Shown piece after piece: positions 18,254 to 28,749 of a stretch of DNA of 64,000 nt; the first letter of the stretch is position 1; every line of letters starts with the position of its first letter. Source of the stretch: Agromyces aureus (lineage in GTDB: Bacteria; Actinomycetota; Actinomycetes; Actinomycetales; Microbacteriaceae); the NCBI RefSeq assembly GCF_001660485.1, contig NZ_CP013979.1, forward strand, positions 3,472,001 to 3,536,000, read 5' to 3'. The notes beneath the pieces are model-generated. The model worked only from the letters and a program-made list of their open reading frames with translations, did not search any database and was not told where the DNA came from. The position numbers were made by a program, and so were the translations under genes.

Positions 18254-18304
18254 GTCAGCGCAGCGCGTGAGTCAGCGCAGCGCGGGAGTCAGCGCAGCGC
18301 GCCC
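18254..18304. repeat. 17-bp tandem triplication at the 3' end of the NUDIX-like gene
   Basis: Three copies of GTCAGCGCAGCGCG plus three variable bases run from 18254 to 18304. The innermost copy contains the stop codon of the minus-strand gene at 18289, so the repeat duplicates the gene's last codons and stop into the spacer. Confidence 0.8.
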
Positions 18305-18876
18305 ACCGAGGCCAGGGCCTGACGCACGAGCAGCCCGCGACCGCCCTCGAACTCGTCGCCCACGGCGTCGGAGGCCGCGTCGCCCGGCGCCATCCAGGTG
18401 ACCTCGAGCGCGTCCTGGCGCGGCTCGCAGGTGCCCGTCACGGGCACCACGAAGACGAGCGAGACCGCGTGCTGGCGGTCGTCGCTGAAGGGCGAGATGC
18501 CGGGCAGGGGGAAGTACTCGGCGACGGTGAACGGCACGGGGCTCGCCGGCAGCAGTGGGAACGCCATGGGACCGAGGTCCTTCTCGAGGTGGCGGAACAG
18601 TGCGTCGCGCACGGTCTCGCCGTACATGACCCGGCCCGAGACGAGCGTTCGGGTCATCTCGCCGACCGCGTTGGCGCGGAGCAGCACGCCCACCTCGGTG
18701 ACCTGGCCGAGGCCGTCGACGCGCACCGGCACGGCCTCGACGTAGAGCAGCGGCAGTCGCCCGCGGATCTCGGCGAGCTCGAGGTCGCTCAGCCACCCGG
18801 GGTTCGTATTGGGGGTCGGCGCGCCCACGGGCTCGTCGTCGCCGTTCCAGTCGGGGTCGGGGGTGCGCACGCTCAT
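18289..18876 (-). CDS. NUDIX-like DUF4916 family protein
   Basis: A 195-residue protein. The blocks WLSDLELAEIRGRLPLLYVE, VPVRVDGLGQVTEVGVLLRA, LVSGRVMYGETVRDALFRHL, EKDLGP, EYFPLPG and DDRQHAVSLVFVVPVTG are those of DUF4916, an actinobacterial branch of the NUDIX fold. The classical NUDIX-box glutamates are not in canonical order, so hydrolysis of a nucleoside diphosphate is uncertain. The ATG at 18876 is preferred over an upstream one because CAGAAT lies exactly 6 nt before it. Its start codon is only 35 bp from that of the divergent esterase gene. Confidence 0.8.
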   Translation of the reverse strand: MSVRTPDPDWNGDDEPVGAPTPNTNPGWLSDLELAEIRGRLPLLYVEAVPVRVDGLGQVTEVGVLLRANAVGEMTRTLVSGRVMYGETVRDALFRHLEKDLGPMAFPLLPASPVPFTVAEYFPLPGISPFSDDRQHAVSLVFVVPVTGTCEPRQDALEVTWMAPGDAASDAVGDEFEGGRGLLVRQALASVGALR

Positions 18877-18911
18877 GCCTCGATTCTGCCTCACGCCGCT
18901 AGCGTTGCAGC

Positions 18912-19559
18912 ATGACGAGTGTGCAGATCGACGATGACGCGGTGATCTGGTCGGCTTCGGCCGCCGATCGGGAGGGCCGGCCGTTGCTCGTGCTCCTGCA
19001 CGGGTTCAACTCGAACGAGGGCGATCTGTTCGGTCTCTCGCCGTACCTTCCGCTCGAGCCCGTCATCGCGTCGCTCCGGGCGCCGCTGCCCGCCGGGCCG
19101 GGGTTCGCGTGGTTCCCGCTGCTCGCGCAGGGCGCCGAGATGGCGATCGAGGGGGCGGATGCCGCGGTCGACGCGATCCTGGCCTGGCTCGACCGTGCAG
19201 CGCCCGACGTGAGCTCCGTCGGCCTGCTCGGCTTCTCGCAGGGCGGCGCGATCTCGCTCGAACTGCTGCGGCGAGCGCCCGAGCGCTTCGCGTACGTGGT
19301 GAACCTGGCCGGATTCGTGCTGCCCGGCGAACGCCAGGGCGACGGCGACGAGCGCCTCGCCGAGCTGCGCCCGCCGGTGTTCTGGGGGCGCGGCACGGCC
19401 GACCCCGTGATTCCCGAGGCCTCGATCGAGCGCACGCGCAGCTGGCTGCCGGTGCGTTCGACGCTCGACGAACGCATCTACGAGGGGCTCGGGCACTCCG
19501 TCTCGGAGCGGGAGCTCGCGGATGTCGCGGCCTTCGTCCGTGCGCAGGTGGCGGCCTGA
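18912..19559 (+). CDS. Alpha/beta hydrolase, phospholipase/carboxylesterase type
   Basis: A 215-residue serine hydrolase. The oxyanion region LLVLLHGFNSNEGDLF, nucleophile elbow GFSQGG, the catalytic Asp in RGTADPVIP and the His in YEGLGHSVS appear in the correct order for the small carboxylesterase/phospholipase family. These enzymes act on short-chain or acyl-thioester bonds in the cytosol; the natural substrate is unknown. TAGCGT at 18900-18905 sits 6 nt before the ATG, giving a leaderless transcript from a promoter almost back-to-back with the NUDIX-like gene. Confidence 0.87.
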   Translation: MTSVQIDDDAVIWSASAADREGRPLLVLLHGFNSNEGDLFGLSPYLPLEPVIASLRAPLPAGPGFAWFPLLAQGAEMAIEGADAAVDAILAWLDRAAPDVSSVGLLGFSQGGAISLELLRRAPERFAYVVNLAGFVLPGERQGDGDERLAELRPPVFWGRGTADPVIPEASIERTRSWLPVRSTLDERIYEGLGHSVSERELADVAAFVRAQVAA

Positions 19560-19606: not shown

Positions 19607-20035
19607 TCAGACGCCGGAGCCGGCTCCGCCGCCGCCCGAGGTGCGACCCTCGGCGGCCCAGCGCGCGGCGCGCTCCTTGTCACGCTCGGCGACGCGGATC
19701 TTCTCGGCACGCACGGCCGCCTGCGTCGCGCGCTCCTGCACGAGCCACTGCGGCGGCGCCTCGAGCAGGGCCTTGATCTCGGCGCTGGTCAGGGATTCGG
19801 TGACGCCGCTGCGCGCGAGGCCGGAGTTCGAGATGCCGAGCTTGGAGGCCACGACGGTGCGCGGGTGCGGGCCATCGCGGCGGAGGGTCTCGAGCCACTC
19901 GGGCGGGTCGGCCTGGAGCTTCGTGACCTCGTCGCGCGTGATCGTGCCCTCGCGGAACTCCTCGGGGGTCGCGTCGAGGAGGATCCCGAGCTTCTTGGCG
20001 GCGGTCTCGGGTTTCATCGACTGGGAGGCGTTCAC
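19607..20035 (-). CDS. DUF5997 family protein
   Basis: A 142-residue actinobacterial protein of unknown function. The blocks KPETAAKKLGILL, FREGTITRDEVTKLQADPPEWL and PHPRTVVASKLGISNSGLAR match DUF5997. The segment TVVASKLGISNSGLARSGVT (about 60-80) reads like a helix-turn-helix. The tail is basic and ends in a Gly-rich stretch. GTG at 20035 is preferred because TAACGT is 6 nt upstream on the minus strand, leaderless as for its neighbours. It is divergent from an HTH-less LysR-type ligand domain, an arrangement I recall from other actinobacteria, suggesting a functional pair. Confidence 0.82.
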   Translation of the reverse strand: MNASQSMKPETAAKKLGILLDATPEEFREGTITRDEVTKLQADPPEWLETLRRDGPHPRTVVASKLGISNSGLARSGVTESLTSAEIKALLEAPPQWLVQERATQAAVRAEKIRVAERDKERAARWAAEGRTSGGGGAGSGV

Positions 20036-20159
20036 CCTGATACGTTAGCCGGTCCGCCTGTGTGCGGCATCCGTCGTCATGGATGACACGCGCACAACGA
20101 CCGTCCATCGAGGCGCGATAGCCTGTCATGGGCGTTTCCGTGGCACAGGAGGGGGCGAG

Positions 20160-20879
20160 ATGACCCTGCAACTGCGCTATGTCGCCGGAGTGAGTCCGGC
20201 CAGGTGGCTGCGAGCCTGGAACGAGCGTCGACCCGACCTCGCGCTCGAGGCGCACCGCGTCGACGAGTCCGACCAGCTCGCGGGGCTTCGCGAGGGCGAG
20301 ATCGACCTCGCGTTCGTGCGCCTGCCGATCGAGACCGAGGGCCTGCACGCCATCCCCCTGTGGGAGGAGCAGGCCGTGGCCGTGCTCCCGAAGGACCACG
20401 CGTTCGCCGACGCGGAGTCGCTGACCCTCGCCGACCTCGTCGACGAGCAGGTCGCCCCGGTTCAGGATGACGCGGCGATGACGATCGAGCTCGTGGCCGC
20501 GGGCACGGGCCTGGCGTTCCTGCCCCACGGCGTCGCCCGCCTGCACGCGCGCAAAGACGTGGTCGCCATTCCGGTGACGGATGCCGCGCCGACCCGCATC
20601 GCGCTCGTCTGGACCCTCGAACGCGACGACGCCGACATCCAGGAGTTCGTCGGCGTGGTGCGCGGACGCAAGGCGCAGAGCTCGCGCGGACACGCCGACG
20701 ACGAGCCCGCGCTCTCGCCCGCGAAGGCCGCGAAGAAGGCCGCGGCCGAACGCCGCGCCGCCGAGGCGGCGAAGAAGGGCAAGGGCGGGAAGGCCGGAGG
20801 CAAGGGCGGCAAGTCCGCCCGTCCGGCTCCTCGCACGGGCTCCGGCGCGAAGCAGCGCAGCAAGCGGAGAGGCCGATGA
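20160..20879 (+). CDS. HTH-less LysR-type substrate-binding domain protein
   Basis: A 239-residue protein consisting of a LysR effector-binding domain (about 1-170) without the N-terminal DNA-binding helix-turn-helix. LRYVAGVSPARWLRAWNERRPDL opens the domain; GEIDLAFVRLP, AIPLWEEQAVAVLPKDHAF and VAAGTGLAFLPHGVARL are typical. After residue 180 comes a lysine/alanine/glycine-rich basic tail that could bind nucleic acid. AGGAGGGGG lies before the ATG at 20160. A TAGCCT box at 20119-20124 gives a leader of about 30 nt. The stop overlaps the amidotransferase start by 4 bp. With no HTH of its own it may need a partner such as the adjacent DUF5997 protein. Confidence 0.85.
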   Translation: MTLQLRYVAGVSPARWLRAWNERRPDLALEAHRVDESDQLAGLREGEIDLAFVRLPIETEGLHAIPLWEEQAVAVLPKDHAFADAESLTLADLVDEQVAPVQDDAAMTIELVAAGTGLAFLPHGVARLHARKDVVAIPVTDAAPTRIALVWTLERDDADIQEFVGVVRGRKAQSSRGHADDEPALSPAKAAKKAAAERRAAEAAKKGKGGKAGGKGGKSARPAPRTGSGAKQRSKRRGR

Positions 20880-21622
20880 GCGAACCCCGGCCGTTCCTGT
20901 TCCTCTCGGCGCGACCCGAGGTCGAGGCGGTCGGGCCGGAGTACGAGTCGATCCGCCGCGCCATGGCGGTCGATGCGGGCCGGCTCGAGCACGTCCGCCT
21001 CGACATCGAGTCGTTTCCGCAGACCGATCTCGCCGACTACGCCGGCGTGGTCGTCGGTGGCAGCCCGTTCAACGTGACGACGCCCGAGGAGCACAAGCAC
21101 CCCGTGCAGCGCCGCGTCGAAGACGACCTCGCACGGGTCGCCGAGGCCGCGCTCGACGGCGGGCATCCGCTGCTGTTCACGTGCTACGGCATCGGCGTGC
21201 TCACGCGCCTGCTCGGCGGCGAGGTCGGCACCCGCCACGGCGAGGACGCCGCGGCCGTCGAGATCACGCTCACCGACGCGGGCGCCGAAGACCCGCTGAC
21301 CGGGGTGCTCCCCCGCAGCTTCGACGCGCTCGTCGGCCACAAGGAGGCCACCGAGCGCCTGCCCGACGGCGCCGTGCTGCTCGCGTCGTCGGCGGCGTGC
21401 CCCGTGCAGGTCTACCGGGCCGGGGCGCGCGTCTACGCGACCCAGTTCCATCCAGAGGTCACCGCGCACGACTTCGTCGCGCGCGCGAACGTGTACCGCC
21501 ACCACGGTTACTTCCCGGCGAGCGAACTTCGCGCCGTGAGCGACCGGTTGGCTGCGGCATCCGTCACCGAACCGCAGCGACTGCTTCGACGCTTCGCGGA
21601 GTTCGCGGGCGCCGACGGCTGA
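20876..21622 (+). CDS. Class I glutamine amidotransferase-like protein
   Basis: A 248-residue stand-alone GATase-1 domain. The nucleophile is Cys103 in FTCYGIG and the His192/Glu194 pair is in FHPEV, a complete catalytic triad. GGSPFNV (61-67) is the oxyanion-strand region. Stand-alone members of this group hydrolyse gamma-glutamyl bonds or serve unknown acceptors; the domain is related to the GuaA amidotransferase but lacks a synthetase partner. It overlaps the LysR-domain gene (ATGA) with GGAGAGG as ribosome site, so the two are coupled. Confidence 0.86.
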   Translation: MSEPRPFLFLSARPEVEAVGPEYESIRRAMAVDAGRLEHVRLDIESFPQTDLADYAGVVVGGSPFNVTTPEEHKHPVQRRVEDDLARVAEAALDGGHPLLFTCYGIGVLTRLLGGEVGTRHGEDAAAVEITLTDAGAEDPLTGVLPRSFDALVGHKEATERLPDGAVLLASSAACPVQVYRAGARVYATQFHPEVTAHDFVARANVYRHHGYFPASELRAVSDRLAAASVTEPQRLLRRFAEFAGADG

Positions 21623-21660: not shown

Positions 21661-22479
21661 TCACGCGGGCAGCGCGGGCGGCACCCCGGGCGCTGAGGGC
21701 GCTGCAGGAAACAGGCGACGCAGCACGAGCCGCTGGCCGAGCGTCCACGAGACGGTGATGAGCAGGTAGACCGCCGCGGCGAGCGGCACGAACATCGCGA
21801 CCACCGCCGTCACGAACTGCAGGAGGCCCAAGACGTTCTGCATGCTGGCGAGCCCCGGCAGTTGGCCGGGCTCGGATGCGGAAGACGACGACCTCGACGC
21901 GGATGCCGCACCCGCCGCCGCGACCGGCCGGAACGCCCGCCGGGTGACCTCGCCGACCAGGGCGATGAGCAGCACGATCGCGCCGAACACGGCGATGGTC
22001 GCGGGGGTCGCCGTGCCGGCAGCGAGGGATCCCGCGAGGCTCGAGCCGAGGGGCACGCCGAACAGCGTGTGCGTGAGCAGGTCGTTCGGGTGCCCGGCGA
22101 TGACCGGCAGGATGAACAGCGCGTAGATGACGCCGACCACGGGGATCTGCACGAGCATCGGCAGGCAGCCGGCGAAGGGCGACGTGCCCTCCTCGGCGTA
22201 GAGCGCCATCATCTCGCGCTGCAGGCGTTCGGGATTCGCCTTGTGCTTGCGCTGGAGTTCGGCCAGGCGAGGCGCGAGCCGTGCGCGGGTGCGCTCGGCC
22301 TTCGCCTGCGAGACGCCGACGGGAATGAGGGCGGTTCGCACGAGCAGCGTCACGAGCACGATCGCGAGCGCGGCGCTCGCACCGCCGGCGAGCGGTTCGA
22401 GCAGGTCGGTGAGGCCCATGAGCAGCGAGTAGGCGACGTCGAGCACGGCGGCGATGGGCGGAAAGGCGTAGAGGTCCAT
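21661..22479 (-). CDS. YidC/Oxa1 family membrane insertase, second paralogue
   Basis: A 272-residue membrane protein. The five-helix YidC core is visible: a first segment near 30-50, the basic cytosolic loop SQAKAERTRARLAPRLAELQRKHK, the conserved MMALYAEEGTSPFAGCLPMLVQIPV (about 90-115), then later transmembrane segments with a Ser/Ala-rich loop of about 30 residues between them. The hydrophilic-groove arginine is expected in the first helix (LLVRTALIP). YidC inserts and folds membrane proteins. It is away from the rnpA/rpmH context and shorter than the housekeeping copy, hence a paralogue. AAGGAAC precedes the ATG. The DUF6412 gene lies about 100 bp upstream. Confidence 0.88.
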   Translation of the reverse strand: MDLYAFPPIAAVLDVAYSLLMGLTDLLEPLAGGASAALAIVLVTLLVRTALIPVGVSQAKAERTRARLAPRLAELQRKHKANPERLQREMMALYAEEGTSPFAGCLPMLVQIPVVGVIYALFILPVIAGHPNDLLTHTLFGVPLGSSLAGSLAAGTATPATIAVFGAIVLLIALVGEVTRRAFRPVAAAGAASASRSSSSASEPGQLPGLASMQNVLGLLQFVTAVVAMFVPLAAAVYLLITVSWTLGQRLVLRRLFPAAPSAPGVPPALPA

Positions 22480-23412: not shown

Positions 23413-24900
23413 TCAGCCGAGGTCGTCGCCCCAGCCGGTCGACTCCCCCGCGGCCGCGATCGTCTGCGGCACGCCCCACGGGTTGGCCGTCTGCAGCGGC
23501 TCGGGCAGCAGCGACTCCGGCGCGCCCTGGTAGGCGACCGGCCGGAGGAACCGGGTGATGGCGGCCGTGCCGACCGAGGTCGACGAGTCGTTCGTGGTCG
23601 CCGGCCACGGTCCGCCGTGCTGCATCGCGGGCGTCACCGCGACGCCCGTCGGCCAGCCGCCGAACAGCACGCGACCGGCGTGCTCGGTGAGCACGCGCAC
23701 CAGGGCCTGCAGCTCAGCGGCATCCTCGCCGGCCGCGGCGTGCACGGTCGCCGTGAGGTTGCCGTCGAGCAGGGTCGGCACGAGGGCCGCGAGGTCGGTG
23801 CCGGGCGCCACCTCGACGAGCACCGAGAGCGGGCCGAACGATTCCTCGAGGATCTCGTCGCGCCCCGCCGCGAGGTCGTCGAGCGAGACCGCGACGATCG
23901 TCGGCGTGACCCAGCCCTGCCCGGATCCGTCGAGCTCCACGCGGCCCTCGGCCACCGCACGCACGCCGGGGGCGGCCAGCACGGCCTCGCGGCGCTCGGC
24001 GTAGCCCGCGGCGATGCGCGGGTTCAGCAGCCGGTGCGGGGCGACGGATGCCGCGGCATCCGCGATGCCCTGCTCGAGCCCGTGCCCGGCGGGAACGAAC
24101 ACGAACCCGGGCTTGGTGCAGAGCTGCCCGGCCGAACCGCTGACGCTCGTGACGAAGCCCGCGACGATCTCGTCGGCGCGCTCGTCGAGCGCCGCCTGGG
24201 TCACGAACACGGGGTTGAGGCTGCCGAGCTCGCCGAAGAAGGGGATCGGCACCGGGCGCGCGGCCGCGATGCCTGCGAGGAACTGGCCCGCCGGGATCGA
24301 GCCGGTGAACGCGCCGGCCTTCACGCGCGGGTCCTCGAGGATCTCGACGCCCTCCTGCTGCCCCGTGACGACCTGGAACACGCCGTCGGGCATGCCCGCG
24401 GCGGCGAGCGCCTCGGCGACGATCGCGGCCGTGCGCTCGGTGAGCTCGGGGTGGCCCGGGTGCCCCTTGAGGATCACCGGGCAGCCGGCGGCGAGCGCCG
24501 AGGCGGTGTCGCCGCCCGCGACCGAGAACGCGAACGGGAAGTTCGACGCCGCGAAGTTCACGACCGGGCCGAGCGGCACGAGGTAGCGGCGCACGTCGGG
24601 GCGGGGTCCGAGCGCGAAGGCCGGATCGGCCTGGTCGATGCGCACGTCGAGGTACGCGCCGTCGGCGACGGCCTCGGCGAACATCCGGAGCTGCACGGCC
24701 GTTCGGCGGAGCTCGCCGCGCAGGCGCGCCTCGGCGAGGCCCGTCTCGGCCATGCCGACCTCGACGAGCGAGTCGGCGTTCGCCTCGAGCGCGTCGGCCA
24801 CCGCCACGAGCGCCTTCGCACGGTCGCGCGGGTTCGTGTCGGCGAACGGCCGGGCGGCTGCGGCGGCGTTCGCCGCGATGGTCTCGAGCTCGGGGGTCAT
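23413..24900 (-). CDS. Alpha-ketoglutarate semialdehyde (2,5-dioxovalerate) dehydrogenase
   Basis: A 495-residue NAD(P)-dependent aldehyde dehydrogenase that performs the last step of hydroxyproline breakdown, alpha-ketoglutarate semialdehyde to alpha-ketoglutarate. The catalytic Cys261 is in GQLCTKPG and the general-base Glu224 in FFGELGSLNP. NFAASNFPFAFSVAGGDTASALAAGCPV is characteristic of this ALDH subgroup. The start at 24900 has GGAG six bases upstream; an in-frame ATG 15 bp earlier does not. It is the last gene of the hydroxyproline operon, 67 bp after the epimerase; the spacer holds short GGTGC repeats. The substrate is inferred from subgroup and neighbours. Confidence 0.9.
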   Translation of the reverse strand: MTPELETIAANAAAAARPFADTNPRDRAKALVAVADALEANADSLVEVGMAETGLAEARLRGELRRTAVQLRMFAEAVADGAYLDVRIDQADPAFALGPRPDVRRYLVPLGPVVNFAASNFPFAFSVAGGDTASALAAGCPVILKGHPGHPELTERTAAIVAEALAAAGMPDGVFQVVTGQQEGVEILEDPRVKAGAFTGSIPAGQFLAGIAAARPVPIPFFGELGSLNPVFVTQAALDERADEIVAGFVTSVSGSAGQLCTKPGFVFVPAGHGLEQGIADAAASVAPHRLLNPRIAAGYAERREAVLAAPGVRAVAEGRVELDGSGQGWVTPTIVAVSLDDLAAGRDEILEESFGPLSVLVEVAPGTDLAALVPTLLDGNLTATVHAAAGEDAAELQALVRVLTEHAGRVLFGGWPTGVAVTPAMQHGGPWPATTNDSSTSVGTAAITRFLRPVAYQGAPESLLPEPLQTANPWGVPQTIAAAGESTGWGDDLG

Positions 24901-24967
24901 CTGGGTCTCCTGCATGGTGCGGTTCGGTGCGGTGCGGTGCGGGGTCGGAGCCGGTCGGGTCGGGGGG

Positions 24968-25969
24968 TCAGAACTGGAAGCCGGTCGGGAACGGGTCGCT
25001 CGGGTCGAGCAGGTACTGCGCGGTGCCCGTGACCCAGGCCCGGCCGGTGATGGTCGGGATCACGGCGGGTCGGCCGTCGACCTCGGTCTCGCCGATGAGG
25101 CGACCGACGAAGCGGCTGCCGATGAACGACTCGTTGACGAAGTCGGTGTCGAGCGCGAGCTCGCCGCGCGCCCAGAGCTCGGCCATGCGTGCCGACGTGC
25201 CGGTGCCGCACGGCGAGCGGTCGAACCATCCGGGGAAGATGGCCATGGCGTGGCGCGACAGCGCGGCATCCGACCCGGGGGCGATGAACTCGACGTGGTG
25301 GCAGTGGTCGACGCCGTCGATGAACGGATGCCGCGGCGGCGCGGTCTCGTTGATGGCCGCCATGATCGCGAGGCCGGCCGTCACGATCTCCTGCTGGCGT
25401 TCGCGGTCGAACGGGAGCCCGACCGCGTCGAGGTCGACCATGGCGTAGAAGTTGCCGCCGAACGCCATCGAGTACGGGATCGTGCCGTAGCCGGGCACCT
25501 CGACGGTGGCGTCGAGCGCCTCGACGTAGCTCGGCACGTTCTCGATGGTCACCGAGTCGGCATGGCCGTCGGTCACCGCCACCCGCGCGATCACGAGCCC
25601 GGCGGGGGTGTCGAGCCGGATCTCGGTGACGGGCTCGACGACGTCGACCATGCCCGTCTCGACGAGCACCGTGGCCACGCCGATGGTGCCGTGCCCGCAC
25701 ATCGGCAGGCATCCGCTCACCTCGATGTAGACGACGCCCCAGTCGCAGTCGGGCCGGGTCGAGGGCTGGAGGATGGCGCCGCTCATCGCGGCGTGGCCGC
25801 GCGGTTCGTTCATGAGGAACAGCCGCAGGTCGTCGAGGTGCTCCATGAAGTGGAGCCGCTTCTCGTTCATCGTCGCGCCGGGAATGACCCCGACGCCGCC
25901 GGTCACGACGCGCGTGGGCATGCCCTCGGTGTGCGAGTCGACGGCCGAGATGACCCGGTTCGAGCGCAT
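24968..25969 (-). CDS. 4-hydroxyproline 2-epimerase (proline racemase family)
   Basis: A 333-residue cofactor-independent epimerase that converts trans-4-hydroxy-L-proline to cis-4-hydroxy-D-proline by two-base proton transfer. Both catalytic cysteines are present: Cys91 in MCGHGT and Cys254 in CGTGTSA. Keeping the second cysteine separates it from trans-3-hydroxyproline dehydratases, which carry Thr there. VDSHTEGMPTRVV and the substrate-site histidine in CHHVEF also fit. AGGAGGAAC precedes the ATG. It is 28 bp after the DapA-like gene, within the hydroxyproline operon. Proline racemase activity is less likely given the neighbouring genes. Confidence 0.92.
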   Translation of the reverse strand: MRSNRVISAVDSHTEGMPTRVVTGGVGVIPGATMNEKRLHFMEHLDDLRLFLMNEPRGHAAMSGAILQPSTRPDCDWGVVYIEVSGCLPMCGHGTIGVATVLVETGMVDVVEPVTEIRLDTPAGLVIARVAVTDGHADSVTIENVPSYVEALDATVEVPGYGTIPYSMAFGGNFYAMVDLDAVGLPFDRERQQEIVTAGLAIMAAINETAPPRHPFIDGVDHCHHVEFIAPGSDAALSRHAMAIFPGWFDRSPCGTGTSARMAELWARGELALDTDFVNESFIGSRFVGRLIGETEVDGRPAVIPTITGRAWVTGTAQYLLDPSDPFPTGFQF

Positions 25970-25997
25970 GTGTTCCTCCTGCTCCGGACGGCCGGAC

Positions 25998-26915
25998 TCA
26001 GCGGCTCGCGATGTAGTCGAGCGCCTTCTGCGTGTCGCGGCGCACCTGCGCCTCGTGCTCGGCCGACAGCGGGCCGCGCGGAGGACGTGTCGGTCCACCG
26101 TAGCTCTGCCCGGCGATGTCGATCGACAGCTTGATGGCCTGCACGAACTCGGTCTTCGAGTCCCAGCGGAACACCGCGACGAGCTGCGTGTAGAGCGTGC
26201 GCGCCTCGTCGATGCGGCCCGCCTTCACGAGGTCGTAGATCTCGACGGCCTCCTTCGGGAACGCGTTCGGGTAGCCGGCGAACCAGCCCGTCGCACCCAC
26301 CACGAGCGACTCGAAGAGCAGGTCGTCGGCGCCGGCGATGACGTCGATGTCGCAGAGTTCCTTGATCTCGAGCACCCGGCGGATGTCGGCCGTGAACTCC
26401 TTGATCGCGACGACGTTCTCGAGTTGGGCGAGCTCGGCGACGAGGTCGGGCGTGAGGTCGACCTTCGTGTCGAACGGGTTGTTGTAGAGCATGATCGGCA
26501 GGCCGACCTCGTTCAGGCGCGTGTAGTGCTCGACGACCTCGCTGCGGCTCGCGCGGTAGATCGTCGGCGGCAGGGCGAGCACGCCGTCGGCGCCGTCCTC
26601 CTTGGCGTACTCGGCCCACTGCACGGCCTGGTGCCAGCCGACGCCGTGCACGCCCGCGACGACGAGTCCGCGACCCGCGACGGTCTCGACGGCGACCTGG
26701 ATCACCTTGCGACGCTCGGCGTCGGTGAGGCTCGAGTACTCGCCGAGCGATCCGTTCGGGCCGACGCCGCGGCATCCGTTCTCGATGAGGAAGTCGCAGT
26801 GCGCGGCGAACCGGTCGTAGTCGACGGCGAGGCCTGCGGGCGCGGAGGCGTCCTCCTTGAAGGCGAGCGTGGTCGCGACGACGACGCCGCCGAGGTCGAA
26901 CTTCTGGGTGGTCAT
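25998..26915 (-). CDS. DapA-family 1-pyrroline-4-hydroxy-2-carboxylate deaminase
   Basis: A 305-residue class I aldolase-fold lyase. The Schiff-base lysine is Lys172 (VAIKEFT) and the helper Tyr144 is in LPIMLYNNPFDT. In hydroxyproline clusters this DapA branch deaminates and opens 1-pyrroline-4-hydroxy-2-carboxylate to alpha-ketoglutarate semialdehyde; that function is inferred from the neighbours, since sequence alone would also allow other dihydrodipicolinate-synthase-family reactions. It starts inside the end of the FAD/NAD subunit gene (ATGA overlap), so it is coupled to it. Confidence 0.87.
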   Translation of the reverse strand: MTTQKFDLGGVVVATTLAFKEDASAPAGLAVDYDRFAAHCDFLIENGCRGVGPNGSLGEYSSLTDAERRKVIQVAVETVAGRGLVVAGVHGVGWHQAVQWAEYAKEDGADGVLALPPTIYRASRSEVVEHYTRLNEVGLPIMLYNNPFDTKVDLTPDLVAELAQLENVVAIKEFTADIRRVLEIKELCDIDVIAGADDLLFESLVVGATGWFAGYPNAFPKEAVEIYDLVKAGRIDEARTLYTQLVAVFRWDSKTEFVQAIKLSIDIAGQSYGGPTRPPRGPLSAEHEAQVRRDTQKALDYIASR

Positions 26916-28429
26916 GGGTGTCCTTTCTCGGACGGTCGGTGCGTGATGGTGTTGGGGTCTCTGCCGGCCAGTTCGCCGAGGCGCAGTGGCGAGGCGATGG
27001 GTCGGCGGTCGGTGGTGACGGATGCCGCGGGGCTGCCGACGATCTCCTCGACCGTTCGCCCGCAGATGCGCCCCTGGCAGATGCCGAGGCCGGCGCGGGT
27101 CGTGAGCTTCATCGAGCGGAGGCCGCTCGCGCAGGTCGCCTCGCGCGTCTCGCGCAGGCGCCCGTAGGGCACCTCCTCGCAGCGGCAGACGACGGTGTCG
27201 TCCTCGAGCCACGTGGTCCAGCCCGAGCGGATGCCGTGCGCGGCCTCGATGCGGGCGGCGAAGCCCGTGAAGGTGCGGCGTGCGCCGACGGCCGCGGCGA
27301 GGTCGGCGTCGCGCGGGCTGCCGCCGGCGGCGACGTGACCGGCGATCTCGCCCTCGGCGAGGGCCGCGTCGACGCCGCCGATGCCGGTGATCTCGCCGGC
27401 GGCGTAGACGCCGGGAACGCTCGTGGCCTGGCTCTCGTCGACACGCACGAAGCGCTCGGGGGTGAGGTCGCATCCGGCGGCGATCGGCAGTTCGAGTCGT
27501 GGCGTGAACCCGTGGCTCACGCACACGGCGTCGACCTCGATGCGGCGCTCGGTGCCGGCGATCGGCGACCAGTCGGCGTCGACCTCGGCGACCGTGACGG
27601 CCTCGACCCGGTCGGTGCCGTGCGCGGCGACGACCGCCCGTCCGGTGACGTACGGGATGCGGTGCCGCAGGTGGGTGCCGACGTAGCCCGCGAGTTCGCC
27701 GCCCTTCTTCGCGGCGCCCACGAGCTGCCACGGCTTCGGCAGCCACCCCTTCACGAGCGCCGACACGCGGCTCGCCTCGTAGACGCCGAGCACCTTCGCG
27801 CCGGTCGCGGCGACCGAGGCGGCGACGGGCAGCAGGAACGGTCCGGCTCCGGCGATGACGACCCGCTCGCCCAGGGCCACGCGCTCGCCCTTCGCGAACG
27901 CCTGCGCCGCGCCGGCCGTGAAGACGCCGGGCAGGTCCCATCCGGGGAACGGCAGCGTGCGGTCGTGCGCGCCCGTGGCGAGCACGAGCGCGTCGGGGCG
28001 GAACGTGCGGCCCCGCCGGGCGGTGCCGTCGGGCGGGCCCACGAGCACGTGCACGGCGACGGGGGCGGCCTCGCCCGCGGCATCCGCCTGCTCGATCGCC
28101 CAGACCTGCGCGCCGAGCACGATCTCGCAGCCCGGGTCGCGGTCGAGCTCCTCGTGCAGCGCGGTGTAGGTCGACCAGCCGTGGTGCAGCGCGCGCTCGT
28201 TCGCCGAGGGACGCGACGCTGGCAGGTGGCGCCAGTACTGGCCGCCCGTGGCGTCGACGGCATCGAGCAGGGTCACGGATGCCCCGCGCTCGCGGGCGGC
28301 CTTCGCTGCGGCGAGTCCGGCGGGGCCGGCGCCGACCACGAGCACCGTGCGCGCGGCGGGCGCACCGGCGGCGGGCGCACCGGCGGCGGGCGCACCGGCG
28401 GCCGGCGTCGCGGGAGTGGCGGGGCTCAT
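26912..28429 (-). CDS. D-hydroxyproline dehydrogenase, FAD/NAD-binding subunit
   Basis: A 505-residue flavoprotein subunit related to the alpha subunit of hydrogen cyanide synthase (HcnB) and proline/opine dehydrogenases. After an AAGAP-repeat N-terminus comes the FAD Rossmann motif VVGAGPAGLAAA (31-42), a second dinucleotide-binding fold (VVIAGAGPFLLPVA) and a C-terminal BFD-like [2Fe-2S] domain with Cys415, Cys417, Cys451 and Cys456. With the small ferredoxin-like and DadA-like subunits it should oxidise cis-4-hydroxy-D-proline to 1-pyrroline-4-hydroxy-2-carboxylate and pass electrons to the respiratory chain. Both ends overlap neighbouring genes by 4 bp, so the three subunits are translationally coupled. 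Confidence 0.88.
   Translation of the reverse strand: MSPATPATPAAGAPAAGAPAAGAPAARTVLVVGAGPAGLAAAKAARERGASVTLLDAVDATGGQYWRHLPASRPSANERALHHGWSTYTALHEELDRDPGCEIVLGAQVWAIEQADAAGEAAPVAVHVLVGPPDGTARRGRTFRPDALVLATGAHDRTLPFPGWDLPGVFTAGAAQAFAKGERVALGERVVIAGAGPFLLPVAASVAATGAKVLGVYEASRVSALVKGWLPKPWQLVGAAKKGGELAGYVGTHLRHRIPYVTGRAVVAAHGTDRVEAVTVAEVDADWSPIAGTERRIEVDAVCVSHGFTPRLELPIAAGCDLTPERFVRVDESQATSVPGVYAAGEITGIGGVDAALAEGEIAGHVAAGGSPRDADLAAAVGARRTFTGFAARIEAAHGIRSGWTTWLEDDTVVCRCEEVPYGRLRETREATCASGLRSMKLTTRAGLGICQGRICGRTVEEIVGSPAASVTTDRRPIASPLRLGELAGRDPNTITHRPSEKGHP
28361..28405. repeat. 15-bp coding repeat for AAGAP units
   Basis: Three near-identical 15-bp units (GGCGGGCGCACCGGC-like) encode AAGAP repeats at the N-terminus of the FAD/NAD subunit. 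The number of units could vary in frame. Confidence 0.75.
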
Positions 28430-28749
28430 CGCGCCGCCTCGGGGAGCTCGTCGTGCTGCGTCTCGACGACGTCGCCGTCGGTCGCGCGTCGCTGGCACGC
28501 CCGCACGTCGCGTTCGCCGTTGACCGTCACGATGCAGTCGAAGCACACGCCGATGCCGCAGAAGAGTCCGCGGGGTCGACCGTCGACCGAGGTCCTGCGC
28601 CACGCGAGCCGCCCCGTCGCGAGCACGACGCCGGCGATGGTCTGGCCCTCGACGCCGTCGACCGCTTCGCCGTCGACCGAGATGCCGACGGGGCGCTCAC
28701 CCCTCGGCCGGATCGGGTCGTGCCGCGAGGGCATCATGCGCGCGGCCAT
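28426..28749 (-). CDS. D-hydroxyproline dehydrogenase, [2Fe-2S] small subunit
   Basis: A 107-residue ferredoxin-like subunit (HcnA-like). Cys64, Cys69, Cys72 and Cys85 form the plant-type [2Fe-2S] pattern C-x4-C-x2-C-x12-C within GLFCGIGVCFDCIVTVNG. It should relay electrons between the two flavin subunits. Its stop overlaps the start of the FAD/NAD subunit and its start overlaps the stop of the DadA-like gene (TGATG), so all three are read as one unit. Confidence 0.9.
   Translation of the reverse strand: MAARMMPSRHDPIRPRGERPVGISVDGEAVDGVEGQTIAGVVLATGRLAWRRTSVDGRPRGLFCGIGVCFDCIVTVNGERDVRACQRRATDGDVVETQHDELPEAAR

Follow-up and report, generated by a model that had tools for sequence, protein, structure and literature searches.

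In a 64,000-nucleotide stretch of Agromyces aureus DNA (contig NZ_CP013979.1, positions 3,472,001 to 3,536,000; hereafter the window), a gene for a LysR-type effector-binding domain that lacks a helix-turn-helix (HTH) is divergent from a gene for a small DUF5997 protein. The same divergent pair occurs at 172 of 172 full-length DUF5997 loci. This linkage is tight and selective and lasts where the HTH is absent, and the two genes therefore very probably form one joint functional module. The reading preferred here, at a probability of roughly 0.4, is a two-chain, ligand-responsive regulator. In this model a LysR-type effector domain that has lost its winged HTH, and whose fold is predicted, would bind a small molecule and act with DUF5997, a tandem HTH-like protein, presumably in a physical complex. 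A basic tail on the LysR protein would supply affinity for nucleic acid. In the simplest version, the second HTH-like unit of DUF5997 would provide the DNA specificity, and the complex would switch with the ligand state of the effector domain. The module would control at least its own divergent promoters in the intergenic spacer. The tandem HTH-like units, a sensor of the LysR-type transcriptional regulator (LTTR) kind, the basic tail and the back-to-back promoters fit this model.

The DUF5997 gene of the window (19607..20035, minus strand) encodes 142 residues. The protein matches PF19460 over profile positions 1-107 of 108 (E-value 1.2e-49; 167.4 bits against a curated cut-off of 27) and is 96% identical to the DUF5997 protein of Agromyces allii. 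The LysR gene (20160..20879, plus strand) encodes 239 residues, comprising the effector domain (residues 1-171), a motif, GVVRGRKAQSSR, at residues 165-176, and a basic C-terminal tail at residues 177-239 (20688..20876, plus strand). The tail is mostly disordered in prediction, with a helix at residues 187-206; the structural model is confident for the effector domain, for which RipR and ITCR are closest, and poorly ordered for the tail. A profile search found no HTH_1 match in the window LysR protein. The 124-bp spacer (20036-20159) is too short to house an HTH, so a frameshifted or hidden one is ruled out. The first-pass annotation had reported this arrangement from the window, where it is confirmed.

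Linkage was examined in a class sample of 394 genomes and in a species collection. PF19460 is matched above its cut-off in 93 of the sampled genomes; one (G511) holds a single-unit relative, and the other 92, spanning 10 family codes and 24 genus codes, have full-length DUF5997. These 92 loci and 80 named ones taken from the species collection, the 80 best-ranking of 580 confirmed stretches, make up the 172 loci, which include some same-strain records and hold 167 distinct LysR tails. A LysR effector domain lies divergent beside DUF5997 in every one, including all 92 sampled genomes, which confirms the first-pass statement that the neighbourhood occurs in other actinobacteria. Corynebacterium glutamicum, a named control genome, also carries DUF5997. 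Within one genus (code g9), the LysR ortholog is present in all four genomes with DUF5997 and absent from all five without it; two weak matches in G377, at 28-29% identity, were taken as other LysR proteins. No cluster of open reading frames outside the pair is consistently common to the families (108 loci in nine groups). Each of the 25 broadest neighbour clusters in that set reaches a minority of loci in one or more of its groups, and the distances are mostly scattered.

A loose motif, [GA][IVTL][VITA][RK]G[RK]xxx[ST][ST]R, follows the last helix in 172 of 172 partners, and its strict form, G[IV]VRGRxxx[ST][ST]R, in 166. All 172 carry a basic tail no shorter than 33 residues, with a net charge of +9 or more; these tails diverge widely in sequence and are constant in basic character. 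No LysR HTH was found in 167 of the 172 (tblastn with two HTH queries). Gaps between HTH-less partners and DUF5997 are at most 213 bp, except at L079 (266) and L168 (278); upstream of these two, and of L116 and L030, reading in three frames revealed no HTH by eye. The LysR gene beside DUF5997 at L168 appears frameshifted in the record, through either a sequencing error or a broken gene. An N-terminal LysR-type HTH is present in five partners (L021, L022, L023, L163 and L170), all of family code f6; the one that was scanned, L022, matches HTH_1 at an E-value of 1.2e-16.

These five pairs are arranged exactly as a classical LTTR with a divergent target gene. DUF5997 might accordingly be merely the target, and the HTH-less partner a relic of HTH loss. 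This explanation is improbable. The pair is kept in the 87 of 92 sampled genomes where no HTH was found, with effector domain and motif conserved, whereas a relic would be expected to decay or separate. In a tree of the LysR proteins, built from 118 of 191 rows after near-duplicates were removed, approximately unbiased tests rejected neither a single clade of the five HTH-bearing, DUF5997-paired rows (p 0.377) nor one uniting all HTH-less rows (p 0.339), a result compatible with one loss of the HTH, several losses or a regain.

DUF5997 consists of two HTH-like units of about 44 residues (residues ~5-54 and ~55-95), followed by a long C-terminal helix (96-128), in an AlphaFold2 model with a predicted local distance difference test score of 90.8. 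Aligned as profiles, the two repeats match with an hhalign E-value of 1.2e-9, and none of 100 column shuffles does as well; by this comparison the protein is an internal duplication of the ~44-residue unit. The HTH-like segment of repeat 2, GPHPRTVVASKLGISNSGLARSGVTE (residues 55-80; 19796..19873, minus strand), has predicted helices at residues 59-66 and 70-75. Invariant in repeat 2 are G55, P56, H57, P58, V61, A63, L66, S69, G72, L73 and R75, in a 64-row alignment that includes no HTH-bearing pair. Searches of DUF5997 against a viral fold library (E<=0.001) and for solved structures matching its sequence (E<=10) gave nothing. A separate family (L176-L179, L181 and L027; f8 and others) has one repeat-2-type unit and, behind it, a cysteine-rich segment that resembles a zinc ribbon (..VCGFAEKARPKKWWPTFTYVSCDSH..); L176, one of three members scanned, barely passes the PF19460 cut-off.

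Spacer sequences point to divergent promoters placed back to back, with both genes leaderless in most loci. In 167 of 171 loci the DUF5997 start has a TANNNT element ending 4-9 nt (mostly 6-7) ahead of it, where shuffles lead one to expect 5.6 loci; for the LysR start the figures are 115 of 146 HTH-less loci and 2.9. Both counts are limited to loci where a start codon lies no more than 12 codons from the match, and the LysR count also omits the five HTH-bearing loci. The window DUF5997 gene fits the pattern, with a probable -10 element (TAACGT; 20042..20047, minus strand) 6 nt ahead of its GTG start. The window LysR gene departs from it: the probable -10 element (TAGCCT; 20119..20124, plus strand), a conserved TANNNT in spacer alignments, is followed by a short leader with a Shine-Dalgarno-like AGGAGG. 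A short ATG frame of 11 codons (20128-20163), which could encode a leader peptide coupled to this gene, starts 3 nt past the element and at its end overlaps the LysR start codon (ATGA). The window spacer also holds two short inverted repeats, which were taken as chance.

The effector domain also occurs without DUF5997. The reverse search, at protein level across 197 genomes of the class, gave matches at E<=1e-10 in 58 genomes, 36 with full-length DUF5997 and 22 without. The 19 DUF5997-less loci examined (G427, G445 and G540 were left out) comprise three ordinary LysR proteins with an HTH and no motif (L228-L230) and 16 motif-bearing orthologs. DUF5997 was never seen without the LysR gene in the 172 loci while LysR orthologs do lack DUF5997; dependence therefore runs from DUF5997 to the LysR gene, not the reverse. 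Within family code f8, ten of the 11 orthologs stop at the motif and have no basic tail, so the tail is inessential to the ortholog family. Two other DUF5997-less orthologs (L221 and L223) do carry it. In four of four orthologs from genus code g2 (L224-L227), which belongs to the window's family, the basic stretch is N-terminal instead. In six of the 11 f8 loci (L213-L217 and L222), the HTH-less LysR gene adjoins a same-strand gene for a BCCT (betaine/carnitine/choline) transporter, upstream in two and downstream in four. This neighbour is a hint to the ligand of the effector domain and makes quaternary amines candidates; small carboxylates are candidates too, since crystals of the nearest solved relatives contained itaconate, 3-phenylpropionate or muconate.

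Several results weigh against the two-chain regulator. All 16 motif-bearing, DUF5997-less orthologs are HTH-less, so that the effector domain persists where no DUF5997 is available. Of the 92 sampled partners, five bear an HTH themselves and yet keep DUF5997 with most of its conserved residues. Foldseek returned 48 rows for the DUF5997 model, none at E<=0.001; the best are non-significant matches to MerR-type DNA-binding domains, and EF-hand proteins are as frequent (~13) as MerR-type proteins (~13). The best hhalign match of HTH_17 to repeat 2 (E-value 0.0016; none of 60 shuffles as good) covers 14 columns, too short to count, and the match of MerR_1 to DUF5997 is equalled by 1-3 of 60 shuffles. 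Homology to either family is for these reasons not established. Repeat 2 has a median net charge of 0 (-2 to 2), against +2 in 29 MerR_1 and 29 HTH_17 domains; the ranges overlap. A fusion of DUF5997 to the effector domain (PF03466) was found in 0 of 20 DUF5997 proteins of 213-308 residues, from candidates of about 210-667 residues that share words with the window protein. Mean-field direct coupling analysis of the 172 pairs (effective number of sequences 87) was uninformative: 27 of the top 100 pairs linked the two proteins, against a random expectation of 50. Beyond the -10 elements, no shared operator was seen by eye in MAFFT spacer alignments of six groups.

The HTH-like middle of DUF5997 proposed in the first-pass annotation thus gains a predicted fold, in two copies, and its resemblance to MerR-type domains is weak and non-significant. 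Since HTH-bearing lineages keep DUF5997, some lineages have neither, and DUF5997 is neutral, the protein is not called a replacement DNA-binding domain here. A role as a specific DNA reader is plausible, with the odds clearly against it. An alternative assigns nucleic-acid binding to the LysR protein alone: effector domain and basic tail would form a ligand-gated binder, and DUF5997 a co-regulator or antagonist that contacts the domain or the tail, not DNA. The constant net-positive tail of the 172 partners suggests this, as do the relocated basic stretch in the g2 orthologs, the neutrality of DUF5997 and its retention beside HTH-bearing partners. The tailless f8 orthologs, the two DUF5997-less orthologs that carry the tail and the strong conservation of the HTH-like segment argue the other way, and the alternative is judged rather unlikely. 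Less likely again is a module that is not transcriptional at all, in which the effector domain would be a cytosolic small-molecule binder and DUF5997 would act elsewhere, e.g. on RNA or a transporter. It would account for the 16 orthologs with neither HTH nor DUF5997, the adjoining BCCT genes and the single DUF5997-like units joined to a zinc-ribbon-like segment; divergent back-to-back promoters and an LTTR effector fold are, however, typical of regulators.

For the two-chain regulator, the boldest version is a natural split LysR-type regulator, as the first-pass annotation had suggested. The sensing half and the DNA-reading half, DUF5997 as a new tandem HTH domain, would be separate, the basic tail would be a second DNA contact, and the HTH-bearing lineages would represent an intermediate state. 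Such a system would be conserved in Streptomyces, Arthrobacter relatives, Microbacteriaceae and other actinobacteria. Conserved linkage and the predicted HTH-like fold speak for it; the HTH-bearing partners, the 16 orthologs with neither, the neutral DUF5997 and the missing fusion do not. It is accordingly put forward as a tentative proposal that is doubtful as it stands. Should the proposal hold, a very large family of bacterial regulators would have a split version, and DUF5997 would have a function. The series of lineages with HTH and DUF5997, with DUF5997 and no HTH, and with neither would allow a test of the change from a one-chain to a two-chain regulator.

Neighbouring genes are shared less widely. 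In the window, the LysR stop is overlapped by 4 bp by the start of a class-I glutamine amidotransferase gene of PRK07567 type (20876..21622, plus strand; PF00117 E-value 3.1e-11; NF005743 295 bits against 264). The first-pass annotation tentatively assigned this enzyme the making or removal of the ligand. It adjoins the pair in 13 of the 172 DUF5997 loci, all from the window's genus, and a likely counterpart is found at two of the four DUF5997-less g2 loci; at 45 of the 172 loci only about 1.5 kb per side of DUF5997 was available, reaching its position in part. A general partnership is rejected on these counts, and the amidotransferase is a local neighbour outside the general module. At the two g2 loci (L226 and L227) the LysR gene is followed by a gene resembling the PRK07567-type enzyme. 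A DUF4916/Nudix gene (18289-18894) and an alpha/beta hydrolase gene (18912-19559) accompany the pair in 16 of the 172 loci, 14 from the window's genus and two from the same family. Near the amidotransferase gene lies a YidC/60KD_IMP-type membrane protein gene (21661-22479), probably a second copy, which is near the pair in nine of the 172 loci. Further along, on the minus strand (23413-28603), aldehyde dehydrogenase, proline-racemase-like, dihydrodipicolinate-synthase-like and FAD oxidoreductase genes were recognized by eye as a catabolic cluster, which by the same reading looks like one for hydroxyproline use.

Open-licence papers yielded no account of DUF5997 or PF19460 function, and nothing relevant on HTH-less, truncated or split LysR regulators among the matches listed. 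The sole mention of the family found there is a table line in PMC10551460, which ranks DUF5997, listed there as of unknown function, fourth among the protein domains that best characterise rapid-growing non-tuberculous mycobacteria.

The LysR partner has the C-terminal effector-binding domain of the LysR_substrate fold that it shares with LTTRs such as RipR, ITCR, BenM/CatM and OxyR. Unlike these, it lacks the N-terminal HTH_1 winged helix and the linker helix, its domain is shortened, and it adds the G[IV]VRGRxxx[ST][ST]R motif, the long basic tail and the constant DUF5997 partner. DUF5997 differs from MerR-type and excisionase-type (HTH_17) domains, as in BldC, HiNmlR and RacA, in having no significant sequence or fold match to them. 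In its model a clear wing is missing and the second helix is short; the protein itself is neutral in charge and tandemly duplicated. Within PF19460 the window protein is a full-length member; shown here for this family are the internal duplication and the pairing with a LysR effector domain at all 172 loci examined.
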